DNA of 64,000 nucleotides. Origin: Ischnura elegans (lineage: Eukaryota > Arthropoda > Insecta > Odonata > Coenagrionidae). This document shows positions 15,942 to 59,000 of the stretch, in pieces (the stretch's first letter is position 1; every line of letters starts with the position of its first letter). Made by a program: the position numbers and the translations under genes. The notes beneath the pieces are model-generated. The model was given only the letters and a program-made list of their open reading frames with translations. It ran no database searches and had not been told where the DNA came from. The stretch is from positions 87,468,566-87,532,565 of the forward strand of contig NC_060251.1 of the NCBI RefSeq assembly GCF_921293095.1, given 5' to 3'.

Positions 15942-16279
15942 GGACCCCGGAAGGGGGATACTAGGTAGGGGGGCTTCGAGGCTTGTACCAACACTTTAAG
16001 GTCGTCTCGGGGCTCTCCTCTCCTGTATATTGCGACAACTGAACAAAATTACCATTTTATTTAGAGTACATTGGATATTCGGGAGGGGGCTATAGGCCCC
16101 CTGCAGGGGCGGATCCAGGATTTATTTCTGGGGGGGGGGGGGCACAAAGATACCTCGTAAGACAAAACGAACCCAATGATAATGGGACCGTATTAAAAAT
16201 CTTCCATATTTTTTAAAAGTCTGGGAGGGGGGAGGGGGGCACGCCCCCGTGCCTTCCCCCCCCCCTAGATCCGCCTATG
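15942..16279. mobile_element. hAT-type MITE pair (second unit 16104-16279)
   Basis: The second unit begins CAGGGGCGGATCCAGGATT and ends CTAGATCCGCCTATG, with poly-G and poly-C tracts just inside. Flanks are GCCCCCTG and GCCCCTTA, a poor 8-bp match. A further CAGTGGCGGACCCCGG start at 15942 has no clear partner end. Confidence 0.5.
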
Positions 16280-16395
16280 GCCCCTTAGCCTCTCTCAGGA
16301 TCGGTCACTGCCTTACTCTTTCACTTTCCTAATTACTGCATGTAACAAGTAATTTTGAAAGCGGACACGCGCTCGAATGCACCCGAAGGTGCATT

Positions 16396-16719
16396 CAGGG
16401 GCGCCGACTTATAAAAAATATTGGGGGGGCCCACATCGGAGGTCTTGCACCAGGAAGAGGTTAAATTGAAAGTGTGTCGCAGCACCGAAACACTACCATG
16501 ATTCACACCACTTGATTCAGTTAACCTGCTTAACCTTATAATTATTTATTTCAACACTCATTGTTGAATTTATTTTAAAAGGTAACTATCGTCAAGCATG
16601 GGAAATAAAAATCACCATTATATTTTTGTGATTTCACAAAGCATAATATAACTTAATTATTTTCTTGAATTATTGAGGGGGCTCCGCCCCCCTCAGGCCC
16701 CATGGAGTCGGCGCCACTG
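16396..16719. mobile_element. hAT-type MITE, 8-bp duplication GGTGCATT
   Basis: Ends CAGGGGCGCCGACT and, inverted, CAGTGGCGCCGACT; exact direct repeats GGTGCATT at 16388-16395 and 16720-16727. It shares its ends with the family at 18305, 29663, 30833 and 56551, in opposite orientation, but its middle differs from theirs. Confidence 0.85.
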
Positions 16720-16996
16720 GGTGCATTAGTATTACCAATTGGTATTTACACCAAGGATGAAATTCAATATGAAGATCAAAATCATTTGGCTTCGCCGTAA
16801 GACTATCTCCAAGCACTATGGGGAAGAATTGTTCTGCAATATGGACTTCCTGCCACTAATAATATTGGGTCAAATTTTCACTGTGTGTAGTATGTTACCT
16901 TTTAAATATTTATTTTAATTTTTAAGGTGGATCTACATTATAACATAAGTTTTTGTTTCACCTACTTAACAATGTTTTAAAATAATTGATGAATTA

Positions 16997-17300
16997 CAGG
17001 GGCTGATTTCGGGGAGTATCAACGGTCATGACCTACCCAAATTTTACCAAAACTTTTCATTTTTATTAGTTTAATAGCTTTTTATGCTCGTAAAAGAGTA
17101 AATGGAGTGTATGTGCAAATGCAAGTCCCAACTACAAGTGACAAACGTGAAAGACGTTTGTGTTGTAATTATCACAGAGCATAGCACTCCCTACAAAATA
17201 TTTTATACGGGAGAACGCTCCTCTTTCCCATAGAGTATTACATACTCCCCGTTCTCAGGTTAAGACCCACCCCCCAAATTTGATGCTATATCCACCCCTG
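16997..17300. mobile_element. Probable hAT-type MITE
   Basis: Begins CAGGGGCTGATTTCGGGG and ends CTATATCCACCCCTG. The left flank GATGAATTA and right flank GATGAATA suggest a duplication with a one-base slip. Confidence 0.5.
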
Positions 17301-17499
17301 GATGAATATTGTCTACTCATGTCAGGCTTCAGACACATTATCGCTGCTGGGTATTGCATGCAACCAAGGCGCCACAGTAAGAAATGAACCACCACCCCCA
17401 AAGCAAATGCCAAAATTCGCCCCTGCCCGACCTTCTCATCGGGTGATGGTTTATGATGACTCCGACGCTGTCAAATAGTACATATGTCATGGACAATAC

Positions 17500-17860: not shown

Positions 17861-17879
17861 CAAATCTACCTTAATTGGT

Positions 17880-18296: not shown

Positions 18297-18304
18297 GATA
18301 CAGT

Positions 18305-18576
18305 CAGTGGCGCCGACTCCATGGGGCCTGAGGGGGCCCGAGCCCCCTCAAAAATTCCTTACGGGTGTGAGGAAAAAATGTATCAGGCTTGTCGATTTTT
18401 CCCCGGAGTGCCAGGTATCGAGATTCGAGTTATCAGGGCTTTAATGTTGATCATATGACTCTTATGTAATTCTTAAAAAATTCTTAAAAAAACTTAAAAC
18501 TCACTACTTATAAAATTTCCCGGGGCAAGATCCCCGGTTCGGCCCCCCCAATATTTTTTGTAAGTCGGCACTCCTG
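18305..18576 (+). mobile_element. hAT-type MITE, 8-bp duplication GATACAGT
   Basis: Ends CAGTGGCGCCGACT and, inverted, CAGGAGTGCCGACT; direct repeats GATACAGT at 18297-18304 and 18577-18584 are exact. Poly-G/C tracts lie just inside the ends. Same family and orientation as 29663-29903, 30833-31091 and 56551-56776. Confidence 0.9.
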
Positions 18577-18785
18577 GATACAGTGTGCCGGCTGGTCGTC
18601 GATGATTACAATTTTCTATTCTTTCCTAATTGTGTCGCGTCGCCCCTTCGTTCTCAAGATTGAGTATAATGAATTAGAATATTTCCACAAAAATTTGAAA
18701 TGCATCCTCAAAAGGCAATGACAAAAGTGCATCACATTCAAAGTGCAAAATGTATATTTTCAAAATTCATTTTCATTCTGTTATT

Positions 18786-19018: not shown

Positions 19019-19164
19019 TCTTTAGAGTCATATCAGTTTTATTTGATTCGCTAGGCAAGTTTTTATGTACCTACATGTGTTTTTTTCTGAGGGAAAATCA
19101 CCCCTTTCCATCCGAAATTGAATGCAGGGGTCTGACATGTGTATGCAGTGGAGGAAGCAGGGGG

Positions 19165-19860: not shown

Positions 19861-20283
19861 CCAAGGGTCGTAGTTCTTTTCGGGCTGAGGGGAGCGTATA
19901 TTTCCTTTCCGCTGAGCCTTGGTGGTATACAATACCCCTCATCGATATTGCAATTGAGGTTTGATATGCGTTGACGGCTTTTAGACTTTCATTAATAATG
20001 TTTAAATATTGCTCATTAAAATGGTGAAAATAAAAACATACATTGGAGGGCCACCATCAAGATTACTATATTTTCAAATTTTCCAAAAATTACGCGGGGA
20101 GCTCCCCTCTCCTTCTCTCTCCTGCGTTAATTCGCCGTTACCGTAGCAATGAGCCCTTCAAAGTGATCCGTTACTCGCGAGGGGCAGGCGTTCACTCATT
20201 GAACTTCCAAACAATGCCCCTATTTGATCAAACATGTGACGTCATCCGAGTTGGAGCCCGAATTCGGAAATACAGAAGTATAC

Positions 20284-20550
20284 ATAGGCGGATTTAGGGG
20301 GGGGATCAAGTGTCCCCCCAGGCGCTGAAAAAATGGACAAATTTTTGGAAAACGGTTATCATTTCGTTCGTTTAGCTCTGTGTATTACGGAACAACAATC
20401 ATTTAATTTCATATTTATAAATTTTACATTAAAATAAAGAGAATTTTTCGTTCAGTAATCGTTAGTTCTTGTTTTTCATCTCGAGTATTAGAGAGTTTGC
20501 CAGTCAGACACCCCAGCCCCCCCAGAAAAAAATCCTGGATCCGCCCCTTG
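20284..20550. mobile_element. hAT-type MITE, duplication AAGTATAC/T
   Basis: Begins ATAGGCGGATTTAGGGGG and ends CTGGATCCGCCCCTTG. Flanks AAGTATAC (20276-20283) and AAGTATAT (20551-20558) differ at one base. Confidence 0.7.
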
Positions 20551-20567: not shown

Positions 20568-20868
20568 CAGTGGTGGATGCTGAGAGGGGATAGGGGGGGC
20601 ATAGTACCCCTGGAGTTTGGACCATTTATAATAAGGAATAAAAACGTAATGCATTATAAAAACTTACAATGAGGTAAAATTACAAAAAATGTGACATAAT
20701 GTTTGCTCGAAAAACTTAATTCCTCGGAAAATTAGTCATGATGCAACCTTCAAGTGTTGTCGAAATTCTCAACATTTTCGTAACCTCTCGGACCCACACT
20801 ACTGCTGGGAGTTCACCCCTACCCTCCCAACTAGTTCCCCTCTCGTCCCTATCCTGGGTCCGCCACTG
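20568..20868. mobile_element. hAT-like MITE
   Basis: Starts CAGTGGTGGATGC and ends GGGTCCGCCACTG. Its internal sequence (20,640-20,815) recurs at 41,935-42,060 and 42,335-42,385, where it is split by another insertion. No matching 8-bp flanks were found. Confidence 0.5.
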
Positions 20869-26544: not shown

Positions 26545-26796
26545 AGGGGCGTATACACATGGGGGGCGCAGGGGGCCCTTGCGGGCCCGTCCGCATTGCC
26601 TAACATTGCAGAATCGCAATAATAACTTTTTTATACCATATGATGGCTTTGTCTTAGATATGCGTATTATCAGTTTAGATAAAACTTTTTAAACTTTGAA
26701 TTTGACTTAATTATTTGTAATTGAGACAAAATTAAAAGTAGCTCAAGATTCCTTTTGCGCCTCCCCCCCATAGAATTTTTTCTGTATCCGCTACTG
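26545..26796. mobile_element. hAT-type MITE of the CAGTGGCGGATACAG family, damaged left end
   Basis: Right end CTGTATCCGCTACTG and a GGGGGGCGCAGGGGG left subterminal block match the intact copy at 53711-53974. TCTGAG occurs on both flanks, consistent with a duplication partly lost together with the left terminus. Confidence 0.65.
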
Positions 26797-27074
26797 TCTG
26801 AGCTTGGGTTACTTTTAAGTAAAATTTCACATTGCCTTCTGAGTTCCAGTACGCTGAAAATATCCTCAGTAGCAAAGTTTATTTCATATGCATAATACCT
26901 GGAAGGAGAATGGTAGATGTCAAAACCGACATAACATCCGCCTGCGATAGCCGAAGTCATCGAGGCAGCGCGTCTTATCTTCGTATCGCCGAAGAATTTA
27001 CGCTTGTGTGGCATCAAAATCGTAGAGCCAGAATCTTTAGCGTTGGTAGCAAAAAAAATGTGGGAGTAAAGCAA
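26797..27074 (-). CDS. Unrecognised open frame, possible exon
   Basis: About 90 codons upstream of the MITE read as a plausible peptide (with GDTKIRRAASMTSAIAGG and an aromatic YHSPSRYYAYEINF stretch). A CTTCCAG/GTATTA donor lies inside, and a T-rich run followed by GCTAAAG could serve as acceptor. The frame continues into the MITE, which is chance. No family recognised. Confidence 0.2.
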
Positions 27075-27665: not shown

Positions 27666-28376
27666 AAATATTTAAAATAAAGGTGTCAGAAGATAAAAGA
27701 AAACAGCGCGGAATCAAAAGAGATAAGTTTTAAATGAATAAGAAGAATATCTGAAAAACGTGATTATGATACAACTGGAAATTCCTATGAGACGTGTTTA
27801 TAGAAAATCAAACGATTGAATACATATCCTGAAAGGAGATTTGAATGGTTAACTACCATGCAGTGTTAAAAAGGAATTCGCTTACTCAGGTGTCATGAGT
27901 TTCCTTACTTAGATTCAAATTGTGATTTACATGGGTACATTACGCATTCCTGCCGAAAAATAGCATTTATATAATTAATATCAATTAAAAATTGCCTAGT
28001 CATTAAATTAAAAACCAAAATTAGATAGAATAAATTAACGCCAACTGTAAGAGGTCTTAATCAAATCAAATATCTGGTTCTGCGACTAATTTGCTCCATA
28101 ATAGGATAATGAAAGGAAGTGGGTGTCGCGTGGGGTCCAACCTGATGAGGCACGAGCGATGTGTGACGTCAACAACTTTCCTTCGAAGAAAAAGAGATGG
28201 AGAAATGTCACTTTTTATAACTCACACTCCGTCAGGATCACCCGTCAAAAATCAAATTGAACCCATTATTACTATTATTATTAAGTATTCTACCGATTAA
28301 GTTAGGTTTCCATGGAATACTTAAGAAGTATCATTGGAGCCTTCCCTTTCTTCATGTTTTTCCTTCAATAGGGTAG
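27666..28376. other. Intergenic, nothing recognised
   Basis: AT-rich; no supported feature. Confidence 0.3.
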
Positions 28377-29035: not shown

Positions 29036-29049
29036 CATTATTTGGCCTA

Positions 29050-29502: not shown

Positions 29503-32500
29503 ATGAAGCTCTTGTGCGCATTGGCCCTACTCATCGTCGCCACCTTGGCCAACGGGAGGACTGTTGTTCACAGTAAGTATTTAATATCTCATTTGACTGT
29601 TAATGCATGTGTCTCAAAATGCGTTTCCGACACCTCATTACTATCATAGCTAATCTTACGATCAGTGGTGCCTACTCCATGGGGCCTCAAAAATTCGTTA
29701 TGGGTGTGAGGAAAAAATGTGTCAGGCTTGTCGATTTTCCTCGGAGTGTCCAGATATCGAGATTCGAGTCATCAGGGTTCAAATGTTTATTATATGACTA
29801 TTATAAAATGCTTAAAAAACTTAAATCTCACTACTTATAAAATTTTCCGGGGCAAGATCCCCGGTTTGGGCCCCCCAATATTTTTTGTAAGTCGGCATCC
29901 CTGCTTACGGTCAAAAACGCACATCGATCTTGTGGCAGGGGACAATATCAATGCAATCTAAATTAGGACACCCAAAAATCTATTCAATATAAATGAGACA
30001 TTTTAGAAATTATAGGAAAGAACGATGATACTTGTATGCGGATGGGAAGTACAGCGATAGCACTAATTGTAAGTGGTGGGCTGGACAGTAAAACGCCTAT
30101 ATTTATGCAACCCGAGACTCACAAAAATAACGTGATATAATGGCAATAATGCCCCATTCACATTTACGAAGACCTTTCTTCTTTGTTGCAAACAAGAGCG
30201 CGGAAGGGGCAATATTGCCGAGATATATATAATTGCATTGTATTGCTGCAGTATTGTAATATCGAGGGTTGCAAAAATATAGGCTTTTTGCTGGTGCTTG
30301 CCATCGATAATGTTTCAAAAACTAAGGCCTGTTGGGCGCTTGAATAAAAAAAATATTTACAATTCCATTTTCTATCACATCGCGAAATTTGAACGCGATC
30401 TGGTGGTGACACTTAGGTACCTTCTCTTGTTTGTACCTTTGTAATGTTCTGACAACCCCCTACATATTCACCCCGATTACCATTAGTAATTTTAAACATA
30501 ATTTTGGCCACAATGCAGCGCAAAATATTAGGCGAGTATAGAAAATGAATTTATTCGTGCTCGAAAATATTCATCTTAAAAATTGCACCGGGCTTTTTTG
30601 CAATCTCACGTCCAAGCATTCTTGCATGCGTTTTTAGCAACTCTCTGCTTTAAGGTCGTTTTACACGGGGCACGTAATTGCACAATCAGACGTGTGTACG
30701 AAGGGGCAGTCAAAAATGGGTCGTGGAAAACGGTGAATTGCTAGAACACATGCGAGAATGCGTAGACGTGAGATGTCAAAATAGCCCGTTCCAATTTCGC
30801 TCATGTATTCAGGCAATTCCACACCATTTTAGCAGTGGCGCCGACTCCATGCGGCCTGAGTGGGCCCGAGCTCCATCAAAAATTCGTTATGGGTGTGAGG
30901 AAAAAATGTGCCAGGCTTGTCGATTTTCCCGGGAATATCTAGATATTGAGATTCGAGTTATCAGGGTTCTAATGTCGATCATATGATTCTTCTAAAATGG
31001 TTAAAAAACTTAAAACTCACTACTTATAAAATTTCTCGGGGCAAAATCCCCGGTTTGGGCCCCCCAATATTTTTATAAGTCGGCATCCCTGTATTTTAGA
31101 AATTAATGCAGTTCTAACCTGCGCAATTCCGTACCCCGTGTAAAACGGTCTTTAAAGTAGTGAATTGATAGAACGCATGCGAGAATGCTTGGACGTGGGA
31201 TTGCAAAAAAGCCGTCTAAAAAAGCGTTCTAATGCATCCGATAATTAGCGTAATTCCACGCCATATTTAGAAATTAATACAGTTCTACCCTGCGCAATTA
31301 CATGCCCCGTGTAAATTCCACGCCATATTGAGAAATTGATACAGTTCTAACCTTCGCAATTACAGGCCCGTGTAAAAGGACCTTAAAAAACCTAAAATTG
31401 CGCAAATGTACGAATGCATCCCCTAGAAATAGCTCATGCTCTAATTTCGTGAATCTGTCCCAGCATTTGTCCCGCCGAGCAACTGCGCGGGTGAATGCAT
31501 CGCGTAAATACGGCTTCAATGACGAGAGGTGACCGCACTTTTCAGGAAACTTCAAGAATACTATAGTCAGTGGCGTAACTATGGGGGGAAAGGAGGATAG
31601 ATAAAACCTCAGAGAAATAAATAAAACAAAAAAAACTATTGTTTAGTTTTGATGTATAATAACTGTATCTGCTCCATGTTAAATTTAAGCGCCAAAATTA
31701 TGTAGAGTGTATTTCAAAGCATGCCATTTTTCGAAAATTTTCCCGGACCTGCCCTTGCCTGAGGGGGGTCGCCCCCTGAGGCCACCCCATCCCCCCAAAG
31801 CATATTCCTAGTTATACCACTGACTATAGTCAAACTCATTTGGGTGATTTCGGACCTTCAGGTGTTCCTCTCTCCATCCCTAACGAGTCCCATGCATTAG
31901 AGAGTGGCAAGATCAATTTAAGGTTAGATTAACTCTTTTAAAGAAGTTAAACAAATGATATTTTATATTGAAATACATAAGACTGATGACACTGCATATT
32001 GCAGCAATGCTCTCGTCCATTATAAATTAAACCAATTCACATGGGCGTTCCCAGAATCAAAACAAGGGGGGGGGTCAAAACTAGATATGGTCATTCAAGT
32101 TGTAACTTTTTTTTGCACAGAAAAGGTTAATGAAACCAAAATTTTAGGAAATTATGACAGGAATTTATTAGTTTTTATAATTATTTGCTTTAAAAAATAA
32201 TGATTTTTATTTTAGTTCCATGTCTTATACTAATATCATTTTTCTTCAATTTGTTCATAACTTTTGTTTTGACCTAAATTTATTTTCACTTCTGGGGGGA
32301 GGGGGCAGTTGCCCCCCCTCCACCCCGCTAGGTATGCCCATGCTAATTCAGACTAAACGGTACTTCATTTTCTTCCTTTTCCTCATCTTTGTGGTGGCTT
32401 CCTTATACCCTTATACAATCTAAATTACGATACAGTGGGGAGATGCGATTTAATTTTAAACACGCTGAGATAAAATTTTGCAAAGTAACTATTTATCACC

Positions 32501-35500
32501 CAAAATGGCTGAAGAGGCTTAAAATTTTGCATGCATCACAGACATTTTGATTTTATTGGCCCTTGCTACGATTTATTTTTATTTGTGGATATTCTTTGTA
32601 AAAACAGGTAGCCATTAATTTTTAGAAGTTTGCGCTCACCATAGGAATTTTAAAGCACCAAGTTGAGGCATTTTGTTACCCATATATTCCTGAATAAATA
32701 AAATTACGGTAAGAAGGGAGGGATCAGTGGCATAGCAAGGGGGTGGTCTGGGGGGTCCAAACCTCCCCCCCCCAATATATAAAAGCACACTCACTTTGCA
32801 TCACAAAAGAAAACCAAATAATAAAATATCATGAATTTACAAAAAGATTTATTTGAAAAATGAAGTTCTTTTGGCATGAAAAGTGCTAAAATTAGTTTAA
32901 AACCCTCTACTTAGTATGCTGTTTTTCAAAAATTTTTCCCCTGGTTTTGGACCCCCCCCAAACAAAATTCCTGGCTATGCCACAGTGGATCACCCCAAAA
33001 TATAAAAACAAAATTTCTTTCCTTCATAAAAGGAAACAAAAATATTGAAAAATTATGAATTTACAAAAGATTTATTTGAAAAACGAAGTTTTTTCTATTA
33101 TGAAAAGTGTTATATAATATAATTAGCCAAATGCAATATTCATAAATATTGTCTACTTTCCATTACCACAGGAAATGGAATTCAACACCTCCCTGCTGTC
33201 CGCCCAAGGCATGACGTTCTGTAAGTGAAATTTTCATCAAAAATGTATGTTACTAGCTTTTAGAAGTTAGCATTTTAAACAAAAATAGATTTTTTTAACG
33301 TTGCACAGCACTCCATTTGATGGATGGCAAAACCTGTGTTCCAACCATGCAAAAAGAGAGAGAGAAAACATAAATTTTAATTTTCCATTCTTAACCGTTA
33401 ACCAGTGACGTGAGATATTTGTTACACTACCAGTGCGGTCTTGGAGACCGCAATAAATCAAAAATTCATAAAATGTTGCAACGCCATTGTTATTGTTTTG
33501 TTTAATTTTTGTTTGAATGCTTAACTATTCTTAAACTTACATTAAAATTTTTACACTCCCAATACGAACCAATTTGTCATTAAAAATTGTGATTTGAAGC
33601 AGGCTCAAAAAACTGATGGTTTACCCTTATAGAGGTTAGGAGCTTGGTGGTCTAGTGGGTAGAGTGATTGGCTACTGAAAATGAAAATAAATCTTGTCAT
33701 TCACACAGCAATATATCACGATGGTGAGGAGAAATACAGCCATTGCATTATTGAGTTTTCACTCCACTAGTAATTCCTGAGACATTAATGTTCATGCCTT
33801 TCATGTCTTTACTTTTAAGGTTTATTTTTCTACATTGTTTCCTTTTTAAATTTGAAATACCCTTTTACTAATTGGTGAGGTAACTGCAGAAATTATTGGC
33901 AAAATTGCCATTATCATTTCCATGTCATGCGATTTTCAGTTTTGCATACTACAAGCTAATTATTAGGTTAAGCTTAGATTTTGTGGTAGGTACTTAAGCA
34001 AGATAAATTAATATTTATAAAGAGGGGATTGGGTTGATGTGGTGGCTATAGTGTGTTGGGCTCCCGCCAAGATTATTAGAGTTCAAATCTTGGCAGTGGC
34101 AGAGATTTTTCAAAATCTCTCCTGCTTGAGTACTGAGTGGCAGGCACTTCAGTATGATCATAAAGAACTCTGTCTATCAGATGGGACGTTAAGCCAAGGT
34201 CCCTTTGGTGTCCTTCAATAGTAGCAGGCTAATGCCAATGCTGGGTTTTTCTCCACCCTTTCCTCCTAACTCTTCCTTTATGGTGCAAATCACCTTAGCT
34301 GATGGTCACCTCCTCCAGTTACCATTCCATACCACTTAATAACAAATATGATTTCAGTGTCTACAATCGAACTCCGAGGGCAAACATGAATGAATATGTT
34401 GATAAACTGCTTGAGAACGCAAAGAAATTCATGATCGAGAATGGACTGGACCCATATCAACTGGATGACATCACCCAGTCTTTTAGTGCCACGGTAAGTA
34501 TTTTTATGGCAGCTATGCCCATCTATTCTTCATTTGTGGACAAAATGACTACCTACTTCAAAATTCTTTAATGGCACATGGCCCATTGTGAGAAAGTAGA
34601 TCAAAGACTATGGAAAAAATTAATTTCTCAATATTCTTAAAAAGTTTAAGACCTTTGAGTCATTATTTAGGGCTCTTTTGCACCTCTTATCCCTGTGAGC
34701 ATCTCTAACATCCACAGGAATGTAATGAGTAAATCATGTGAAATAAAACCATTTTGGAAAATTCTGATTTTGACAAAAATATCAGTCCTAATAGCATTTA
34801 TTCTCAATGCACTCATATAAACCATAATTATAATAGATGATACTTTGATACTTTTCAAATATTTTTTATTAATATTATAATAATGTGAACTTACCAATCT
34901 AAAAAGTGAATAAAGAATAGGTAGTAGGAAAGTGCTGGAACTTTGTGCTGACAAAATAATCCAAAATTTTCATGAATTTTTCAATCATTTTCATTTTTGT
35001 AAGTTTAATTAGAACATCAATGTTATTATTCTATTTGATCTCAATGGACTCATTCACTATTGTTTCACTATTTGAATGCAAGAGAGCTTAAAGAAACCTA
35101 AAATTTTCAATTCTTCAATAAATTGACTAATTCGGGAACCATTTATGAGGAAAAATTGATGTGGATAAGTTAATGATGCCACAAACTCATGGCTAGTGGG
35201 TCACCACTTCTCAGATACTCCTCTCATCTTTGCATGGGTGTCACATGTTTCATTGCCATTAACATTCTTATGAGCGACTCCGTCCCTCAATGGATGGTTC
35301 TCCCTGAATTAGCTTATTATTAACTGAAATGGTATCACCAACTCATCAAAAGTGGGAGAAAACTTTAGCATTTTCTTATTTTAAACTTACAAGGGAATGG
35401 CTGAATGGGAAAGATTTTGCATCACAGAAAAAAAATTAAACGTAGGTATATTTTTTTCCAATTCATTCAACAAATTGTGATTTTGGGTTAGAGTGAACAA

Positions 35501-38500: not shown

Positions 38501-40568
38501 TTATCTCGAGTCTCACATTCCTCACTCACGATGCTTTACACAACCACATTACCTTGGTCTTATTGTGATTAATCCTCATCCTATACTCCTCGCACCGCTC
38601 GTCTAGTGCATCTACTAGAGCAAGGGTACCCAAACTTTTTTGTACCACGCCCCCCCCCCCCGCTACACATATCAGCTTTCTATTTTGCAATATCCTATTT
38701 CCACGGTGCCGTACATACCAACTCCTACTTTCGCAAGTACTTGTACTCGTACAAGTATGTGCCTACTTGATACGGTGAGTAGGTAGATTTTTTTGTTCAC
38801 TGTTGAATGCGGTAATGCAGAATAGAAAGATTCAATAATTGTACATATGATGAAAATTAAAACAAGTATTACATGAAAAACGAATATAATTACCTGTAAC
38901 CTTCTTTGATAAAGTTTACAACTTTATTGAAACTTTACAAAAACAATTATGAAAACTTAGAAAGACTTTATTTCAAAGATCTGAGGAAATTATTTTTGTA
39001 ATTTTTTATTTATTTCATTTGGGTGTCACGCCCCCCCTAGAGTTTCTCCTAAGGGGGGCGCGCCCCCCAGTTTGGGAACCCCTGTACTAGAGCCTGCAGT
39101 CCCCTCGCTGACTGGCTGATGAGTGCCTGATCATACGCAAACGTTACTGATTTAAACATCATTCCTCCCACTTTCACTCCAGCTTCCAACTTGTTCCACT
39201 CTTCTCTTACCATCTCCTCCTTGTACAAGTTAAAAAGCAGTGGCGATAGAGGACAGCCTTGCATCACCCCTCACTTAATGCTTGCCCATCCAGATTCTCC
39301 AACTGCTATTCACTATACCAGGGGCGCAGCTAGGAATTAAGGCTGGGTGGGGGGGTTTAGGTGCAACCAATACCAGGGTGTTTGGGGGCATGGTATACCC
39401 ACCAGGATAAGTGGTAGGTGCGAGATTAATAAATTGTGGAATTTTAAGATAAATGATTGAAAATGGTGAGTTTTATGGCTTTCTGAGGGATATTTTATTA
39501 ATCCTTACATTATTCTATTAGTAATATCAATCCAATTAAGTAAAATGGATTAAACTTAAAAATTTCTCTGAACTCTGGGGGGGGGGGGGGGGTTTATCCC
39601 CAAACCTCCCCTTGCTGCGCCACTGCACTTTACAACTTCATAATTATTATTATAGCCAACAGGAGTGTTGAGTGTCATGGTTTTCTGGTGGACTTTTTCC
39701 TTGGTAAAGCCTGAATTAGCTTGAATCACACAATTATTTTTCACAAAAATTCAGGGGCGGTGGCAATTAAAACCCTAATGATGGCTCCAGGACACAATCA
39801 TACCCAGAAATTGTGATGATAATGAGGCAACGCCTCATCTAGGGAAGAGTTTTTGGGGGGTAGGAGCTCATGTGGATGGGGTACATTTAAGACTGCATCT
39901 CCTAAACTATTCTGCAGTAATTTTTAATGGATGATAATTAATTTAATATATGAGGTAGCAACAACAACTAGATGATGTAACTGTCTTTTGTATTCTATCC
40001 ATCTGTAGTAACAAATTCCTACATTACTTCTTGATAAATTTCATGTTTTCAAGGCCATTGCAAATTGGGGGAGTTCAGAGATTCAAATAGCCCAGAAATG
40101 CATTCCCCCTCTCTGTAAAATGTCTATTCGTAGATCCAGGTTGGAATCTTGGCTAAGCCAAATAATATTTTCCAGATAAATATGCAACATACTCTCTTTC
40201 CACATAAACCTTCCACCTATAAAAATTTTCAGACTCTAGCCATGGTTTTGTTAAGTGCTGAGACACAATTACTGCAAATAAGTTTTTTGCTTGCAACTTG
40301 TCTAAAAAAATTACTCTTATGCCATTTACACCATTCATTATGCTGACAGATTTCTTCAATATTTCAACCCTTATTTTCCAGTGATGTTAAAATTGAGTTC
40401 AGTGGAATGGGAACAGTGGGTGATTGGATCGTGGACCAACTCAGCAAGGTCGTGCTGGACCTGTTCAAGGGACCGATCATTAGCAAGGTTCAGGATGTAT
40501 TGAAGGGTTCAATCGAGGACGCCCTGGCCAATATTGACATCAGCCACTTCTTGCCCGGCCGTTATTAA
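29503..40568 (+). CDS. Group 7 allergen-like secreted lipid-binding protein, complete, six coding exons
   Basis: Coding exons: 29503-29572, 33172-33220, 34358-34493, 35572-35724, 37053-37204, 40382-40568. All use GT..AG and the phases join without a stop, giving 248 residues. Residues 1-18 form a signal peptide (MKLLCALALLIVATLANG). Residues about 50-85 are an amphipathic helix (VDKLLENAKKFM). Residues about 86-187 are beta-rich (GIVWHGELKLTKGW, then FDYDFSAQFMNIG). Residues about 188-248 form the closing strand and C-terminal helix. This order and the DLIGIVWHGEL-type strand fit the group 7 mite allergen-like family, whose members adopt half of a BPI-like super-roll related to JHBP/takeout proteins and bind hydrophobic ligands outside the cell. 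Length is slightly above the usual 210-230. Ligand unknown. A leader intron precedes the ATG exon (acceptor at 29479). AATAAA lies at 40676, 108 bases after the stop. All five coding introns are intact; the first, third and fifth hold mobile elements. Confidence 0.88.
29663..29903 (+). mobile_element. hAT-type MITE, duplication CTTACGAT/GGT
   Basis: Ends CAGTGGTGCCTACTCC and GTCGGCATCCCTG; flanks CTTACGAT (29655-29662) and CTTACGGT (29904-29911). It lies in intron 1 of the group 7 gene, 90 bp after the signal-peptide exon. Confidence 0.85.
30652..31156. mobile_element. TIR element with TTTTACACGGGG ends, carrying a nested MITE
   Basis: Left CGTTTTACACGGGGCACG is inverted at the right end near 31,135-31,150. 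The MITE at 30833-31091 interrupts it. Fragments of the same right end are repeated at 31,265-31,390. Confidence 0.6.
30833..31091 (+). mobile_element. hAT-type MITE, duplication C/TATTTTAG
   Basis: Same family as 18305-18576. Flanks CATTTTAG (30825-30832) and TATTTTAG (31092-31099) differ at one base. Inserted into the TTTTACACGGGG element. Confidence 0.8.
31095..31390. repeat. Three partial tandem copies of the TTTTACACGGGG element end
   Basis: The segment TTTAGAAATTAATGCAGTTC..CGCAATTCCGTACCCCG recurs at about 31,265-31,310 and 31,327-31,380 with small changes, giving a stutter of element termini. Confidence 0.6.
31568..31822. mobile_element. hAT-type MITE, duplication ACTATAGT
   Basis: Ends CAGTGGCGTAACTA and, inverted, CAGTGGTATAACTA; exact 8-bp repeats at 31560-31567 and 31823-31830. 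Poly-G and poly-C subterminal tracts. Confidence 0.9.
32040..32342. mobile_element. hAT-type MITE, duplication CC/TAATTCA
   Basis: Ends CATGGGCGTTCCCAGAAT and GGTATGCCCATG; flanks CCAATTCA (32032-32039) and CTAATTCA (32343-32350). Sister copy at 45962-46240. Confidence 0.8.
32725..32986. mobile_element. hAT-type MITE of the CAGTGGCATAGC family
   Basis: Starts CAGTGGCATAGCAAGG and ends CCTGGCTATGCCACAG, with poly-G/C inside. The sister copy at 42066-42331 has an exact 8-bp duplication; here the flanks have decayed. Confidence 0.65.
33637..33680 (+). repeat. SINE head fragment
   Basis: GGTGGTCTAGTGGGTAGAG is a typical tRNA-type A box; the B box is missing, so this is a truncated SINE. Confidence 0.35.
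34028..34270 (+). repeat. tRNA-derived SINE
   Basis: A box GTGGTGGCTATAGTGTG and B box GAGTTCAAATCTT are correctly spaced. The body contains GATGGGACGTTAAGCC, a conserved-looking central block. Ends about 90 bp before the third coding exon of the group 7 gene. Confidence 0.65.
35725..37052. other. Intron 4 of the group 7 gene, nothing recognised
   Basis: Mostly AT-rich with a short GC-richer patch near 36,410-36,500; no element border or ORF supported. Confidence 0.3.
37347..37624. mobile_element. hAT-type MITE, duplication ATATCACC
   Basis: Ends CAAGGGTAGATCCAGAATT and TAAATCCACCTATG; exact 8-bp repeats at 37339-37346 and 37625-37632. Confidence 0.9.
37795..39300 (-). mobile_element. LINE fragment with reverse-transcriptase remnant, split by a hAT element
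   Basis: The minus strand at 39,060-39,267 encodes QGCPLSPLLFNLY and later FAYDQALISQS, the conserved reverse-transcriptase blocks (the second a decayed form of the catalytic YADD-type box, with FAYDQ in place). The segment 37,800-38,610 holds the downstream C-terminal tail in broken frames. A 464-bp hAT element at 38621-39084 separates the parts. Lies in intron 5 of the group 7 gene, antisense to it. Confidence 0.75.
38621..39084. mobile_element. hAT-type MITE nested in the LINE, duplication TACTAGAG
   Basis: Ends CAAGGGTACCCAAACTTTTT and, inverted, CAGGGGTTCCCAAACTGGGG; exact TACTAGAG at 38613-38620 and 39085-39092. The interior has long C and G runs and no ORF. Confidence 0.92.
39319..39625. 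mobile_element. hAT-type MITE, duplication CACTATAC/CACTTTAC
   Basis: Ends CAGGGGCGCAGCTAGG and, inverted, CAGTGGCGCAGC; 8-bp flanks at 39311-39318 and 39626-39633 differ at one base. Family members at 49017 and 50054. Confidence 0.85.
40133..40175 (+). repeat. Fragment of the SINE seen at 12.3 and 48.8 kb
   Basis: TCCAGGTTGGAATCTTGGCTAAGCC matches the B-box region and start of body of that SINE with a few changes. Confidence 0.4.
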
Positions 40569-41280: not shown

Positions 41281-41711
41281 ACAAAATTTAAGATAATTTT
41301 ATTTAAACTGATTATATGCGTATACAAGACAATGCTATCTTACGATATAATTAAGTTACAATTGTGGATCTGCAATGTTTGGCAATGCGGGCAGCCCCGT
41401 AATGGGGGTGGGGGGGTATGTGCGTGCCCCCCATATGTATCCGCCACTGCCTAGAATCTCAATTTTTGATATAGGTACAATTTAGAAGATGTAAGGGTAA
41501 GGAAAATTACAAAAAAATATGTTGCTTCTTTAGCCATTCCCTCATAAGTTAAGAGGAGAAAAAAGACAAGTTGCAGCCTATTTTTCATGAGTTGGTGACA
41601 TTATCATAGTTCAAGTTTGATAATTTACCTTGGGAGAGGTACTCATTAAGGTAAGAAATCAGAAGGTAAGCAACTATGAACAACGTGAAGCCAATGCACA
41701 AGACAGAGGTG

Positions 41712-42393
41712 CAGTAGGGAGCAGTAGCATATCCAGAGAGGGGCTGGGGAGAGCTATAGTCCCCCTTTTGGATATCCAATTTACACTAGATATAATGGTA
41801 ATATTTTTCAGTTGTTGAATATATTAAGGAGAGAAGAGCCCTGAAAACCCAAAAGTTCAGAGATACCTCAGTGAGCCGTGGCACTGATGTGATTATGCCA
41901 CTACTGAGCACCTGTCCAAGGTCATTCACTATTTGTAATGCATTATAGAAACTTACCATGAGGTAAAATTACCAACAATGTACATTAATGTTTGCTTTAA
42001 AAGCTTAATTCTTTTGGAAAATTAGTAATGAGACAACCTTAAAGTGTTATTACAAGCCTCGAAATCAGTGGCATAGCCAGTAATTTTGTTCGGGGGGACC
42101 AAAACCAGGGGGGAAAATTTTTGAAAAATAGAGTACTAAGTAATGGGTGTTAAACTAATTTTAACACTTTTCACAATCAAAAAAACTTCATTTGTTGAAA
42201 GAATACTTTGTAAATGCATGGTTTTTCAATAATTTGTTTTCTTTTATTAAGGAAAATAATTGTGCTTTTATATTTTGGGGTGGGGGGGTGGGTCCGAACC
42301 CCCCTCCCCCCGCCCGCTGGCTATGCCACTGCTCGAAATACTAAAAAATGTTGTAACCTCCTGAACCCCCACTACTGCTGGAAGGTTATATTT
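41712..42393. mobile_element. MITE related to 20568-20868, interrupted by a second MITE
   Basis: Segments 41,935-42,060 and 42,335-42,385 match consecutive parts of 20,640-20,815; the 266-bp gap is the element at 42066-42331. The outer ends are poorly kept. Confidence 0.55.
42066..42331. mobile_element. hAT-type MITE, duplication CTCGAAAT
   Basis: Perfect 13-bp inverted ends CAGTGGCATAGCC; exact CTCGAAAT at 42058-42065 and 42332-42339. Nested in an older MITE. Confidence 0.93.
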
Positions 42394-45961: not shown

Positions 45962-46240
45962 CAGGTGCTTACCCAGGATCAAAATTAGGAGGGGGGGGGG
46001 GGGCAAGCCATGGTCGTTCAAGTTGTAACATTTTAGCATAGAAAAGTTTAATGAAATCAATTTTTTAAGAAAATTATGACAGCGATTCACTAGTTTTTAA
46101 AATTATTCGCTTGAAAAAATAATTATTTTTATTTTAGTTCCATATATTTTAATAATATCATTTGTCTTCAAAAGAAACTTTGTTCAAAACTTTCGCTTCG
46201 AGGGGGGCAAGCAGCTGCCCCCCCACTGGGTACGCCCATG
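45962..46240. mobile_element. hAT-type MITE, duplication TTCCCTTA
   Basis: Ends CAGGTGCTTACCCAGGAT and GGGTACGCCCATG; exact TTCCCTTA at 45954-45961 and 46241-46248. Sister of 32040-32342. Confidence 0.88.
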
Positions 46241-47202: not shown

Positions 47203-47339
47203 AATGAACGTCCCCTTATCTCTGGTCCCGAGTCTGGTTACCTTTCTTAAGCAGGTCTCAAGGAGGATTGTTATTACATTATATTTGTTTTTAATCGGTT
47301 TTTCTTTCTACCCCTAAGCTTTATCGCACTACTCGGGCC

Positions 47340-49016: not shown

Positions 49017-49309
49017 CAGGGGCGCAGCTAGGAATTAAGGCTGAAGGGGGGGGGGGGGGGTTGCAACTAATACCGGGGTGTGGGGGCATAGAATACCCAC
49101 CAGGATGAGCGGTAGGTGCAAGATTAATAAATTGCAGAATTTTAAGATATATGGTTCAAAATGGTGTGTTTTTACGGCTTTCTGAGGGATATTTCATTAA
49201 TCCTTACAGTATTCTATTAGTAATATAAATCCAATTCAGTAAAATGGATTAAACTTAAAAAATTCTTTGAACTCTGGGGGGGGGGGGTCGTTGTAAGTCG
49301 GCATCCCTG
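49017..49309. mobile_element. Chimeric MITE: left end of one hAT family, right end of another
   Basis: The left part CAGGGGCGCAGCTAGG and about 230 bp follow the family at 39319. After a poly-G tract the last bases (GTAAGTCGGCATCCCTG) are the right end of the family at 18305. The 8-bp flanks do not match. Confidence 0.7.
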
Positions 49310-50053: not shown

Positions 50054-50357
50054 CAGTGGCGCAGCGAGGGGGGGGGGGATTTGGGGGATAACCCCCCCCC
50101 CCAGAGCTCAGAGAAACTTTTAAGTTTAATCCTTTTTACTTCATTTTATTAATATACTTATAGAAGAGTGTAAGGATTAATAAAATATCCCTCAAAAAGC
50201 CGCAAAACTAACAATTTTGAACCATTTATCTTAAAAAATTCCTGTGGGAGGCCCCCGGCACCTCCCGCTTATCCTGGCGGGTATACCACACACCCCAGAT
50301 CTGGTTGCGCCTAAACCCCCCCCCCCCCCCTAGCCTTAATTCCTAGCTGCGCCCCTA
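50054..50357. mobile_element. hAT-type MITE, inverted copy of the 39319 family
   Basis: Starts CAGTGGCGCAGCGAGG and ends CCTAGCTGCGCCCCTA; flanks ACCCTATC and ATCCCATC match at six of eight. Confidence 0.7.
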
Positions 50358-53710: not shown

Positions 53711-53974
53711 CAGTGGCGGATACAGATGGGGGGCGCAGGGGGCGCGCGCCCCCCCCCTTGCGGGTCCGCCCGTATTGCCGAACATTGCAAAACCACAATT
53801 GCAACTTTTTCATATCATAAGGTGGCATTATCTTTTACATGTTTACAATCATTTTAAATAAAATTTTCTTATACTTTGGCTGTGACTTGACTGTGATCTT
53901 TTATTACGATAAAAGTAAAGACAACTCAAGATATGTTGCGCCCCCCCCTTGAGTTTTTTCTGTATCCGCCCCTG
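53711..53974. mobile_element. hAT-type MITE, duplication ACCACGAT
   Basis: Ends CAGTGGCGGATACAG and, inverted, CAGGGGCGGATACAG (14 of 15 match); exact ACCACGAT at 53703-53710 and 53975-53982. G and C runs lie just inside. Confidence 0.93.
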
Positions 53975-53989: not shown

Positions 53990-55640
53990 GTTAGTAATTT
54001 GTGCTGATTCAAAAGCTATTTAGGCATACATTATTCTCTGCTTGCTCAAGCTAGTTATTGAAATTCTTAAATTTGAGTAGAACATAATTTGACATTGATA
54101 ATCTTTATCTGACATAAGGTTAGCAGACGTTTCCGAATGATCAGAAAATGCACACCTATGGTAGAGCTTCTTGTTGCACGAGTCACTTATTTTTTTAACA
54201 AATATTCATGGTTAAAGTATTATTATATTATTATTAAAGCGTCAGTCGAGTTTGATTAAGTCATTAGTCAAAATATTTTATGTCGTCGTGGTGGCGGTGA
54301 TAGAAAATCACGCGCTTTGGAGGCTGCATTTGTTAGAGATTTTGTTAGCATTTGCACTTAAAAGTCATGCTCGGGGATGGATTTCAATGATAATGCTCGT
54401 TACATCAACATTTTGAGGACTAAATTTAAGTATAAGAACTAAATAAATGGTAAATGTTATTTTTGTTACTGCTAAAATTACTCATTGTTTTCACCCATAA
54501 AAAACAAAACTATAAATACTGCACTGAGATGAAAGGCATTATATGCAGACTTAAAGGAGTTTATTTTCAGAAAGTTTTTCCCTTCGGAGCATAGATTGGA
54601 AGCGTAACGTTTGTAAATATTTAAATTCATATAAATGTACGAATGAATAAAATAATGAAGAAATTGTATAATTTTTTTCGTGTTTCTTGGCTGTTCCAAT
54701 TATGCTTTTTGTTTAAAGTTGTCTGCTCCATTGATATTCTAAAAGTATCCTTAAAAAATTTTTTTTCTCAGAATCTTCAGGTCATTTGTGATGTGAGGAT
54801 AATGGGAAGATTTCTAGTGAAACCGTAGTGATAAAGTACCCAGTTACGTTGAGAAAACACGGAAAACTAAGATTTTGTTCTATCCATCGTGGAAGTCTTC
54901 ATCAATTCGCTTCCATAATGATCATGCCCAGCTTTTTGAATGTTTACTTGAGGTTTACGACTCGTTATATTGGTTTTAAGCGACAAATTATGATTATTTT
55001 GCTGTGAATTCATATGATTAGTAGCAAAATTATAGAATCAAAACCTACTCCGCTAGGAATTAATCAATTACTGCGTAATTGTCAGGATGAGATTCAAATG
55101 GCATCGTCGATTAATGTCCTTGGGGTGCCTCAAAGTGATAAGATTTGGAAATTAAACGTTCCATCTCGAGAAATAATCTATCATTAGCTTAAAATCGACA
55201 ATTAGGTTACCCTTAGCTAATAATGATAATATCCCACTCCTACCGCTGTGGACTTTCCATCAAAAAGAATACGAAATACGAGTGATCCACGGAACATGTA
55301 CGACATTGCTTAATAACACTAATTACGAATTGAAAATAGGAATTCAAACAAGCGAATTCCGTTATGTTAATTTTATTTAAAGATTCACTTTTGGCTATTT
55401 GCCTACTTTTTAGGTACGCATTTAAAATATCATTTAGTCACATAAATCCAGAAACATCTTATCATAAAGTGTTAGTATCACCCTACACCATTGAAATAAA
55501 TAATTAAATCTAATTTGTACATCTTTGTTACTCTTGGTTCTTCCCCGTCGAAGTTACTTAACGTTCAAAGTACTTTTACACTTTGTGTACATACGCACTC
55601 TTGTCATATAATACATATGTACACAGATTATGGATAGCAT
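53990..55640. other. Intergenic, nothing recognised apart from a possible MMP poly(A) signal
   Basis: AT-rich. TTTATT at 55372-55377 reads AATAAA on the minus strand, about 665 bases past the metalloproteinase stop, and could be its polyadenylation signal. Confidence 0.3.
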
Positions 55641-56040
55641 TACCAAATTAGTCGAGTACAAAAGAAAAGAAATTCCGGCTAACATCAATGTGTAGCTCCA
55701 TAAGGTCTACAATCACAACAATAAAGCATTTATGACAAAAACTAACACTAGAGGAAGAATTGATATGTACATGGAAACCCAGTAGGCATTTGGTACAGGA
55801 GGGGTTTAAACAATTTTCTACGGGCGTTAGCAACAAGCGCTTCAATATTTCCTTCACATGAATGGGAACAAGTCGAAACATTCTTCACTGCAGATAACTT
55901 AACCAATGATTTTCATGCAGGTAAGGACGAATACAACTAAAGGAAGCGTATTTTGGCTCCAAAATGTTAACGTAACGAGTTTTTTTTAGCATTGCACTCC
56001 TTCCCCAATATATTTTTAAGCATTGGAAGCAAGGAATTTT

Positions 56041-59000
56041 TTAGTCGAGAAAAGCAGCGATTTTTTTCATCACATTTCCAATCACCGCCTCACCTGCGTC
56101 CAGTATGGTGTCGTCCACATCCGAATTTCTCTGTGAATTCAGAGTCGGTTTGGAGTGTTCTACTATCAGTGTACCATTGTTCTCAGCGGAATTACCCACT
56201 CCTTTAGTCATGTCGTCGTCACCATTCTTACGAAGAATAGGATCATTACCGAACTGTCCCTTGGAGGCGGATCGACAGCCAAACCACCAGTAGCCGGCAG
56301 GACGGGGGAACGGAGGATCTGCGGGGTCCACCTGTAATAATAGACGAAGGAAAACGGTCAGAAAATAGATTTAGAGGATACCAAAGTATCAGAATCGCAT
56401 CCAGACGGTTGGCCTACTGTGTATGTGCTAGTGCTGTTTTGTTCTTTCCATCTGGTTTATTGTTAGAGCCCCGAGAGTTGAAATCACTGAAGAGGATCGC
56501 ACCAATTTTTATGAGGTGAATCCTATCATGAGCGAATAATCTAGACCAACCAGTGTTGCCGACACCATGGGGCCTGAGGGGGAAAAGGAGTGTCAGGTTT
56601 GTCAATTTTCCCCGGATTGACGAGGAATCGAGAGTCGAGTTTTCATGGTTCTCATGTTGATCATATGACTCTTCTAAAATGCTTAAAAAAACTTTAAAAC
56701 TCACTATTTACAAACTTTCCCGGGGCAAGACCCCAGTATGGGCCCCCCCAATATTGTTTATAAGTCGGCAGCCCTGAGACCAACTAAAGAAGAAATATAT
56801 AATCACGGAATGATTCGTTTCGACTTACGTTAAACTTCCCGTAAAATGTAGAATTAGTGTTAAAGCAATTAAGGGGGTTTATCACCAGGGCCGATTAGCT
56901 TTCAACCAACATGTTGTAGAGAGTCTTGGGTGGTATATGAAATGGAAGAGTTAGGTTTCCATTCATTGCCTAAGAAAAGGTTTTATGCTAATCAGTAGAG
57001 ATAAAAAACTGTAGATGTTAAAAATGAGGTACATGAAGAGTTTTTATTATGTTTGAAAAAAAGATCAAACGTTAAATAAACCTCTCAAAAGTGTCATGAT
57101 ACGAAATGCAACACAATAATTCAATCGATGCAGTAAAGTTGGTGTTTTCCGGCGATACTCTGTTATTCATCCAAAAAGTTAATCAAATTCCACCAAGTTT
57201 CATTGTATTCATAAAAAAAACGATGCAATGTCTATTACGGATCACTTCTTATCTGAAGGTTATCGAATGAATTCGTTCAAAGACATTGGAAGTTTCTATT
57301 ATGCTGATGCGAGAGATATACATAAATAATTAATTATTATAAATTATTATTTGTCGCAATTCAGTTCAAATTGTCTTTCAAGTAAAACTTTTCTGCGAAT
57401 AACGCAAACTTGCATTAGTTATGTACGTATGAAAATGTCCTGCATAATCAGATCATAAATACATTGAAACCAACATCGCTAATTTTTTATGAAACCTATT
57501 GAAATTGTACGCAACATCGGAAATATCGTAAACACTTGACGGTGGACGTTATATTGAATAGGAAATTCCTTTAGTACTATTAACTGTAATGTGTGGGATT
57601 TTATGTCAACATGTTTGATTCAATTCATTCTAGTGGGGCGTGGTTCACCATAACATGATTTGGTGGAGTTGTGTTTCAATTACCATGAACATGCTGTCGC
57701 TAAAGCGATAGTAGAGACCGTCCTTGAAGAAGTAAGTGTAGCCATTCGTGTACTGAAGAGCAGCGTCGAGGTTGTCCGGAACGCCTTCCCAGTTGCCAAT
57801 TGGCTTTGGATACGTTGACTTGACGGGAGGACGCTGCGATGGGTCGAACCTCCAGAACTTTGAGCCTGTAAATAAATCATAATAAAGTTTTACACATTCC
57901 ATATGATAGTAGGTATTTGTTGGGTGGTATTGTTACCTAGTGGATAGAGTATAAGGGTATAGACCAAGGGTTAATAAGAATCACAGTGGTGAATCGGAGG
58001 GAAATCTGTTGCAGAGAGAAACATTCTTCTGAAGATCTTAGTACCATTTCATACAGAAGGACAATGTAGGATTGAAGGGAATAAAGAGTTACTGCTACTT
58101 GATGGGAAAGATGGCATAAGAACACGGACACCGCCATTGTGTTGTTGTTCTATATATACTGAGACGCCAGTGGTGTTTTTTTAGCTGCTTTTTATTGGCT
58201 TATGACACGGTTTTGGAAATCGTTCCACCAATAACTTTACCCCGTTAAGGGGTACTGCAGTCATAATGATAGAGCAGTCACCATTCATGCCTAAAAATCG
58301 CTCCTTGTCTTCTGCGGCGCCAGAAATCCACCTTACTATCCTAAATACATATTTGCTATTATAAATTAATATTGATTTGTTAGCAGTCTATTCGTGGCCG
58401 GTCACTATGGCCGGCATGGCATGGTGGGAACTATCATTGGCAATCACTATGACCGGAGTGGCGGTCAACTTGCTAACTGAGGTTAAGGGATCGATAAATA
58501 GCTCCGCAGGGGTATGTGCAAAGAATGGGCGAGGGAAGATTTTGTAAAAAAAATATTTTAACCCTTTAACTGCGCAAATAAGCTGAAATAGAGCTCCCCA
58601 GAGGCGCAAAAAAATGATAATAATATTTTTTATTTTTGAATTATTTTATTAATTATAACTTTTTACTTAAGGAAAAAATGTTTCAAAAATATTTAGGGCA
58701 ATAAAAAAGAAAAGAGGCCTAAAAGATGTCCGCATGACATTTACTTGTCAAAGGAAGAGCTTCTAAGCATATACTGGGAGAGTAGAGGAATAGTTCAAAT
58801 CGTCAATAGACGATGGGAACAGTCTGCTAAGGTGATCGCTTATAGATGGGGGCAGGTTAAGAAAGAAAAAAAATATAGAAAGACCCAGGAATAGATGCGT
58901 GGAGGATGTAGAAGAGGATTTGAGGCATCAGCGATTCGAGAGATGGAGAAAAGTATTAGAGGACCAATAAGGATAGAAGGTAGTTGTGAAGAAGGCATGA

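Follow-up and report, generated by a model that had tools for sequence, protein, structure and literature searches.

Short hAT elements with unequal G-tract ends in the Ischnura elegans genome and their probable asymmetric transposase-binding sites

Transposons of the hAT class end in terminal inverted repeats (TIRs) of 10 to 25 bp (PMC3942097). For Tip100 of Ipomoea, 100 bp of each end suffices for transposition (PMC12511174), and in Hermes, a hAT element of the housefly, a palindrome of the left end is bound by two BED domains while the right end is bound by none (PMC10368747). What we say of these and the other cited papers refers to the accessible excerpts of each. Here we analyzed a 64,000-nt stretch of the Ischnura elegans genome (1.72 Gb), G000:C6:87468566-87532565, hereafter the window, which holds a cohort of miniature inverted-repeat transposable elements (MITEs) with runs of G or C close to their ends. 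Judged from their sequences, these are probably Tip-group hAT MITEs whose two ends would present asymmetric binding sites to a transposase. Elements of this general kind, hAT MITEs with CAGNGGCG ends and G-tracts, are common in invertebrate repeat libraries. As elements they are ordinary members of a familiar class, and what appears to be new is their asymmetric end plan.

We catalogued 20 near-complete elements in the window, 176 to 464 bp long and 5,602 bases in total, and sorted them by hand into ten families (F1 to F10) on the basis of blastn cross-matches and the words at their termini. These counts exclude element 15935, the chimera 49017 and every partial end. A sequence-only reading of the same DNA had listed at least 14 elements of one make. 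The shared make holds, and the number was too low. That reading had also called the families unrelated; their interiors do differ, but their TIRs have CAGNGGCG-type letters in common. It was right that the elements have no open reading frame (ORF) of note, the longest complete Met-start ORF among them being 53 aa. The TIRs are about 14 to 15 bp long, with 0 to 4 mismatches in the first 12 bp of the nine elements named there. Finally, the constant plan that it described is real, but it missed that the two ends of one element are unequal. We call the end that usually has the palindrome the near end and the other the far end, and we place an element on the plus strand when its near end is on the left.

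At the near end, the first G-run starts at bp 15 to 21 and usually opens a G...C palindrome. At the far end, an AT-rich spacer comes first and the G-run starts at bp 25 to 31. A run of at least four Gs after bp 13 is found at both ends in 18 of the 20 elements, and in all 18 one run starts at 15 to 21 and the other at 25 to 31. We chose these position limits after seeing the data; the chance of the outcome is 0.5^18 = 4e-6 if the elements are independent and 0.002 when just nine families are taken as units. Outside the window, an automatic scan of 300 kb at 80 other loci gave 30 scorable elements (27 of the F1, F5 and F8 types; three the window's own copies; five bystanders), and 30 of 30 obey the plan. 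Two were left out: 1501-2444 of locus L123, a pair spanning two neighbours, and L083, unscorable because one end has no G-run. Genome-wide, the pattern CAGTGGCG-N4-34-G7 occurs 7,312 times on the forward strand, against 73 for the reversed pattern, and CAGGGGCG-N4-34-G7 occurs 4,560 times against 126. We disregarded the totals for the reverse strand (23,134 and 13,900), because repeated listing inflates them. Among the matches listed, about 100 rows per pattern of which the last may be truncated, all from the first 9 to 10 Mb of one contig and dominated by a few families, the G7 of CAGTGG ends starts at 15-16 in 21 of 44 and at 26-28 in 16 of 44, and that of CAGGGG ends starts at 26-28 in 30 of 36 and at 15 in one. 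The end plan was examined in this one genome. In IMG/VR, CAGNGGCGGATCCAGG gave 53 matches, none with a run of at least six Gs in bp 15 to 60, and we therefore took these for chance; four longer patterns gave no match in four scans of IMG/VR and one of the GTDB genomes.

We searched the genome with profiles PF05699 (150 scored matches, 16 of them in uninterrupted frames of at least 600 aa) and PF14291 (125 and 19, respectively). One locus, L104, is a 4,460-bp element flanked by CTCATGGG. Its ends, CAGGGGCGCCGACTTATAAAAAATATTGGGGGGG and CATAGGCGCCGACTCCATGGGGCCTGAGGGGG, are F1-like, one of them two letters off the usual F1 near tip. The 730-aa open frame of L104 matches DUF4371 (E 1.8e-24; 87.4 bits, cut-off 32.1) and the hAT C-terminal dimerisation domain PF05699 (E 1.4e-6; 28.4 bits, cut-off 21.4). 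The five F1 MITEs of the window match both L104 ends with the middle missing, at 74 to 100% identity in the matched parts and in two arrangements: element 16396 has kept 61 bp from one end and about 290 bp from the opposite end, and in 18305 the two retained parts measure about 209 and about 56 bp. Since these two keep different parts, the F1 MITEs apparently came from an L104-like element by at least two internal deletions. The check proposed earlier, a search for a genomic hAT transposase with matching termini, thus succeeded for F1 and gave no partner for F2 to F10 among the loci retrieved. The assignment to hAT-type MITEs is supported by the L104 ends and, as detailed below, an empty site and 8-bp target site duplications (TSDs) at other genome copies.

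Both ends were also obtained for three more DUF4371 families, L102 (76.7 bits), L105 (83.7 bits) and L128 (44.4 bits); L103 is a second copy of the L102 family. Protein identity is 25% between L104 and L102, 22% between L104 and L128, 56% between L102 and L105, and 46% between L128 and L105, so the four represent two deep lineages rather than four. At the end downstream of the gene, the first run of at least three Gs starts at bp 27 or 28 in all four. Its length is 7 in L104, 5 in L102, 3 in L105 and 8 in L128, and an AT-rich stretch precedes it (AT 0.55 to 1.0 at bp 15 to 25). The TIR CAGGGGCGGA in the far ends of F2 (16104) and F8 (53711) equals Tip100 CAGGGGCGGAG at 10 of 11 bp (PMC12511174); TIRs of the other families deviate from the Tip100-like form, most of them after CAGNGGC. 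Membership of the Tip group of hAT accords with the TIRs, the TSDs and the transposase, DUF4371 being known for the F1 partner and its three relatives.

Other parts of the search bear on the transposases. L104 has a weak zinc-finger match, zf-C17orf113 (E 0.039), and by eye a CxxC...HxxxxH-like pattern, which may be of TTF type, can be made out in L104 and L102 either where DUF4371 begins or N-terminal to it. A phmmer search of L104 against PDB sequences gave no hAT match. No hAT gene was found in the window among the 10 of 14 stop-to-stop ORFs of at least 120 aa that were scanned with Pfam (E up to 0.01), and, of six further hAT transposase regions in the genome, L130 to L132 gave no end pair. 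An F4-type near end lying 1.0 to 1.4 kb from a hAT domain at L083-L091 looked like an autonomous F4 element and was rejected by eye: an F4-type far end follows about 200 bp further in, so the feature is a MITE. These nine loci have the same flank and look like segmental duplicates. At L133, positions 1497-6405 hold another hAT element, with a 633-aa frame, CAGGGACCTGGAGC ends with GGAGCGGAGC repeats, and TSD CTCTCATC; it has no DUF4371 match, and its ends do not follow the plan.

Inside the TIR, the G-run is part of a family-specific unit, U, that occurs once per end, direct along the element and flipped relative to the TIR. U is seen at both ends as CAAGGGGGGGGCGC in F8, GGGGGGCAAGC in F4, TTTATTTCGGGGGTTCA in L102 and ATTTATCTAGGGTGTGCA in L105. 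We compared the far end of 12 hand-picked representatives, TIR excluded, with their own near end and with the near ends of other families; F10 is not among the 12. In the direct orientation, the own-family mean score was 10.08, compared to 7.48 for other families (permutation p 1e-4). The p was 2e-4 with better-preserved copies for two families and 5e-5 when homopolymers were cut to 4. The inverted comparison was weaker, with p 0.03 to 0.04, and 0.28 after compression. F5 and L128 rank 3 to 6 in these tests. L102 and L105 have nearly the same TIR and different units, and each unit is alike at both ends of its own element.

The most economical reading of these patterns is that U may be the site on the DNA that Tip-group transposases recognise, and that one end often has it in duplicate. 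On this reading, DUF4371-type hAT transposases from genes at other loci would mobilise the MITEs in trans, as the matching ends and deletion structure support for F1 and as we infer for the other families. Inside the TIR, each end would have one U, consisting of an AT-rich stretch, the G-tract and a short suffix, and the two copies would share one orientation along the element, in contrast to the inverted TIRs. At the far (3′) end, U would come directly after the TIR, so placing the start of the G-run at bp 25 to 31. At the near (5′) end, U would be flipped and, in the G-tract families, usually preceded by a second partial copy, producing a G...C quasi-palindrome from bp 15 to 21. The N-terminal region of the transposase might read U; the enzyme would then first be loaded where the site is flipped and often doubled, and the single site opposite would complete the synapse, which would pair a near end with a far end. 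Replication slippage would lengthen and shorten the G-homopolymers, which would be the core of U rather than a structure in themselves. A bolder form of the idea is an end code in Tip-group hATs: a near-common TIR is combined with a family-specific U whose letters change together at the two ends, U being single and lying roughly one helical turn deeper at 3′ but flipped and often doubled into a palindrome at 5′, the copies often mirrored about bp 36, and the transposase would accept a near end with a far end only. The 12/23 rule of V(D)J recombination would be a formal parallel. We regard this general code as tentative and rather doubtful.

A number of observations weigh against asymmetric binding sites of this kind, and the first of them weakens the end code in particular. 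The upstream (5′) end has no run of three or more Gs in three of the four autonomous elements, L102, L105 and L128, so the near-end G-run belongs to the MITE families and L104 and not to the whole group. The L102 5′ end has a palindrome without a G-run, and those of L105 and L128 have the flipped unit only, with no stem above shuffles (p 0.49 and 0.82, respectively). Palindrome strength reaches significance only when the families are combined. F6, ranked 12 of 12, does not pass the U test and has its palindrome on the wrong side; F10 has none. In 13 of 25 rows, the end of the far copy and the start of the near copy of U fall within 4 bp, a mirrored position, and the near copy starts at bp 35 to 38 in 11 of the 13. 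The near-end tract is hypervariable in F5, which is unexpected for a strictly needed site. No partner transposase element was found for F2 to F10 among the loci retrieved. L129, a DUF4371 region, has only a weak end pair with three TIR mismatches and one TSD mismatch, without G-runs; we did not count it, and if real it breaks the plan. Pfam found no zf-BED in L104, L102 and L105 (E up to 0.1) or in L128 (E up to 0.01). Finally, the families share ancestry, so the elements are not independent events.

The strongest alternative is that the G-tracts are mutational baggage: a few ancestral terminal Gs were expanded by slippage and copied along, and their position is fixed by descent. Indeed, the families have TIR letters in common and hence some ancestry, three of the four autonomous elements lack a 5′ G-run, and tract lengths in the window vary from 5 to 16. 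The F5 family points the same way. Among its ten copies, mean pairwise identity is 0.934 in the interior, 0.933 in the far spacer, 0.803 in the far tract and 0.739 in the near tract region, the least conserved part of the element; these averages include L122 and L125, whose ends are misplaced. The expectation that G-tract length would be conserved above the interior therefore failed in F5. A GGTCCGGACC-like core nevertheless persists in several F5 copies, and 10 of 12 young F8 copies have a far tract of 8 G, the other two having 7 and 11. The F5 and F8 data show that tracts are kept as a class and that their lengths drift quickly. The far-end layout of L102 and L105 survives with just GGGGG or GGG, and these short far runs, along with 5′ ends devoid of a G-run, tell us that a homopolymer is dispensable; it looks like a subterminal site's core in expanded form. 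The proposal that G-tracts matter for transposase binding or DNA structure is partly supported: their position is strikingly constant, and their length is not kept in F5.

Three observations are hard to reconcile with baggage, which we consider unlikely. Far-end position is kept between elements whose transposases are 22 to 25% identical. The letters of U differ between elements and agree within one, as with GGGGGTTCA in L102 and GGGTGTGCA in L105. Furthermore, the interiors of the 20 elements (3,122 nt) hold none of the window's 69 G/C runs of six or more, and the terminal 62 nt (2,480 nt) hold 48. Most of the long G/C runs in this AT-rich window are thus homopolymers at transposon ends. The remaining 21 lie elsewhere (58,398 nt), compared to 4.7 expected from shuffles, and by eye about half of them sit at partial ends.

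A second alternative is that the G...C palindrome of the near end works by folding into a DNA or RNA hairpin, for example through extrusion that aids excision or through small RNAs from read-through transcripts, and does not serve as a paired site for protein. Stems of 6 to 11 pairs, e.g., TGAGGGGGCCCGAGCCCCCTCA and GGGGGGCAGCTGCTTGCCCCCC, do occur in the better-preserved near ends of F1 to F5, F7 and F8, and the F1 copies 29663 and 56551 have lost all or part of theirs, as expected for a structure unstable in replication. However, the stems are just moderately above dinucleotide shuffles (single p 0.007 to 0.55). A Fisher combination over ten families, for which we took the worse row wherever there were two, gave p 0.0013 for near ends and 0.86 for far ends. 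Among the autonomous elements, the 5′ stem is above shuffles in L104 (p 0.02) and L102 (p 0.007), and none of the four 3′ ends has one. The absence of a hairpin from L128 and L105, and from the far ends of most families, also speaks against this explanation, which seems to us quite improbable.

Several results show that these elements are real insertions. In the nine elements for which the sequence-only reading had claimed exact 8-bp flanks and inverted ends (42066, 53711, 38621, 31568, 37347, 45962, 18305, 16396 and 56551), we found both in 9 of 9, with a TIR limit of 4 mismatches in 12. Our scan at this limit also gave a tenth row, 41510-42016, an A-rich pair of different make that was left uncounted. 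One further element, 20283-20549, has an exact TSD, and four (29663, 30833, 32040 and 39319) have a TSD with one in-place mismatch. We scanned the window for CA...TG pairs separated by 60 to 3,500 bp and mismatched at no more than 3 of 12 TIR positions, and for six controls read the flanks 1 to 13 bp further out. At k = 8 there are 8 pairs with exact flank repeats, compared to 0 in each of the six controls; at k = 5, 6, 7, 9 and 10 the counts are 6, 4, 2, 0 and 0, none above the highest offset control. Element 42066-42331 interrupts sequence related to 20568-20868, and this relative has a single copy of the target, which agrees at 7 of 8 letters. Once the element and one of its 8-bp copies are removed, the two align at 79% identity over 177 columns, with a 9-nt gap beside the site. 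The empty-site comparison thus upholds the claim that the 8-bp repeats are duplications.

Exact TSDs, all mutually different, flank 7 of 8 F1 loci and 12 of 12 F8 loci of the genome; they also flank 7 of 10 F5 loci. These loci are the best scoring of 40 scored for each family, and one locus per set is the window's own copy (3 of 30). The 300-kb scan gave 32 different exact-TSD pairs, compared to 0, 1, 0, 0 and 2 in the offset controls, and also caught elements not sought, at L058, L083, L100, L123 and L127. That the cohort is a mixture of chance inverted ends and unrelated repeats with coincidental 8-bp repeats is hardly credible: six elements (16104, 16997, 20568, 26545, 32725 and 50054) do have TSDs that are imperfect, shifted or not clear, but the 8 pairs against 0 in the controls, the empty site and the 32 pairs against at most 2 contradict it. 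Among 37 distinct TSDs, there is a hint of a weak symmetric target preference, nnTnnAnn, T being favoured at the third and A at the sixth position (38 of 74, p 0.0002); the test covered four position pairs and two letter orders, with families unevenly represented and some available TSDs not included. This differs from the Hermes pattern nTnnnnAn (PMC10368747), and PMC3942097 states that its authors left the target preference of the Tip group uninvestigated. At L123, positions 1501-2444, F5 and F3 MITEs abut, the 8-bp repeat ATCTCACT occurs three times, and an F1 element is nested in F3, which suggests that one target was used repeatedly, as if by two elements.

The families are represented as follows. 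F1 (GCCGACT) has five members. Element 16396..16719 (324 bp, minus strand; TSD GGTGCATT, exact) has its near end on the right, and 18305..18576 (272 bp, plus; TSD GATACAGT, exact) has the near palindrome TGAGGGGGCCCGAGCCCCCTCA. Plus-strand copies 29663..29903 and 30833..31091 each have one TSD mismatch; the former has no near-end palindrome, and in the latter substitutions have eroded it. The fifth, 56551..56776 (plus; TSD AGACCAAC, exact), has lost half of its near-end palindrome. F2 (GGATCCAG) consists of 16104..16279 (minus; flanks 6/8 alike), 20283..20549 (plus; TSD GAAGTATA, exact), which was absent from the earlier list, and 37347..37624 (minus; TSD ATATCACC, exact). The first of these is nested in the near-end palindrome of an outer, older CAGTGGCGGACCC element, 15935..16312 (plus), which it splits; by eye, the right end of the outer element is at about 16312 and there is no good TSD. 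F3 (GCGCAGC) is found at 39319..39625 (minus; one TSD mismatch) and at 50054..50357 (plus; flanks 6/8 alike), where the near palindrome has 11 pairs. At 49017..49308 (no strand assigned, no clear TSD), an F3 far end is joined at the G-tract to an F1 far end, and from this chimera G-tracts may be recombination points. F4 (TACCCAG) has two minus-strand members, 32040..32342 (one TSD mismatch) and 45962..46240 (TSD TTCCCTTA, exact), the latter being the one with its unit at both ends.

F5 (CATAGCC/GTAGCC) comprises 42066..42331 (minus; TSD CTCGAAAT, exact), whose empty site was described above, and 32725..32983 (plus; TSD unclear). F6 (GTAACTA), at 31568..31822 (plus; TSD ACTATAGT, exact), is the exception with a palindrome deeper in the far end. 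F7 (CCCAAACT), at 38621..39084 (464 bp, minus; TSD TACTAGAG, exact), has a C-tract in place of the G-tract at its far end. F8 (GGATACAG) is represented by 53711..53974 (plus; TSD ACCACGAT, exact), with its unit at both ends, a degenerate relative at 26545..26797 (plus) with approximate ends, and a partial copy, 41282..41449 (minus), of the near end. F9 is 20568..20868 (plus), the empty-site relative of 42066, with no recognisable TSD, and F10 is 16997..17300 (plus), flanked by GATGAATT/GATGAATA with a 1-base shift. Partial ends, judged by eye, lie near 15935, 29194, 41449, 42400, 43180, 43327, 43376, 45183 and 49017. In the genome, F1, F3, F5 and F8 have at least 40 scored copies each and far more unscored candidates; the scored copies of F8 (53711) are 96 to 100% identical.

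The window also contains features of other kinds. A perfect palindrome at 12276-12459, with 88-bp arms, an 8-nt loop and TTAA on both sides, carries a tRNA B-box-like GGTTCGAATCCCGG in each arm and scores 28.9 for the Rfam tRNA model (gathering score 29); it is possibly a TTAA-target foldback element with a captured tRNA-like sequence, or an assembly artefact. There is no Rfam match at the gathering score in the window, and no tRNA by ARAGORN. A 446-bp element at 11382-11827 has 132-bp arms that are 98% complementary, with TTAA at both outer ends. A matrix metalloprotease exon at 63222-63599 (minus strand; Pfam Peptidase_M10, E 3.9e-33) is the sole Pfam match among the 10 scanned ORFs. A dispersed repeat of about 650 bp is present in three copies, 9018-9662, 28367-29038 and 46535-47205, parts of which are 79 to 96% alike. 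Finally, 3759-4316 and 10341-11398 form a long inverted pair of several pieces, 91 to 93% complementary and about 6 to 7 kb apart.

If the end plan is real, sequence alone offers a way to study how a hAT transposase recognises the ends that belong to it and distinguishes the left one from the right; MITEs could then be paired with transposases through U instead of the TIR. The plan would also explain the clustering of long G/C runs at transposon ends, which matters for repeat annotation and for mononucleotide-run variation. At listing level, our full-text literature searches turned up neither the asymmetric end plan nor an end-binding study of the Tip group, and we recognised nothing on hAT ends in the G-quadruplex and G-tract literature.

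The closest described elements are of the Tip group. Tip100 has a TIR, CAGGGGCGGA(G), like that found here (PMC12511174), and BuT2 has an 8-bp TSD and a transposase with DUF4371 and hAT-dimerisation domains, as here (PMC3942097). In contrast to the elements of the window, no subterminal unit or end asymmetry is described for either in the accessible excerpts of these papers (PMC12511174, PMC3942097), and the catalogued copies here differ in being MITEs of 176 to 464 bp. They can be likened, by description only, to mar and other insect hAT MITEs, which are non-autonomous, short and of hAT type (PMC3517528). In Herves, a hAT element of Anopheles, the two ends have one subterminal motif in common that by itself allows the transposase to bind, and they are bound asymmetrically (PMC3143072); this motif, CG/AATTCAT, has no G-tract, and a single/flipped layout is not reported in the excerpts of PMC3143072. 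In Hermes, a quasi-palindrome lies just inside the TIR of the left end only, at bp 11 to 27 (PMC10368747), and may be compared to the near end described here. The Hermes site has an AAGT motif and its transposase a zf-BED, whereas the sequence here is different, zf-BED was not detected, and the other end also has one unit.

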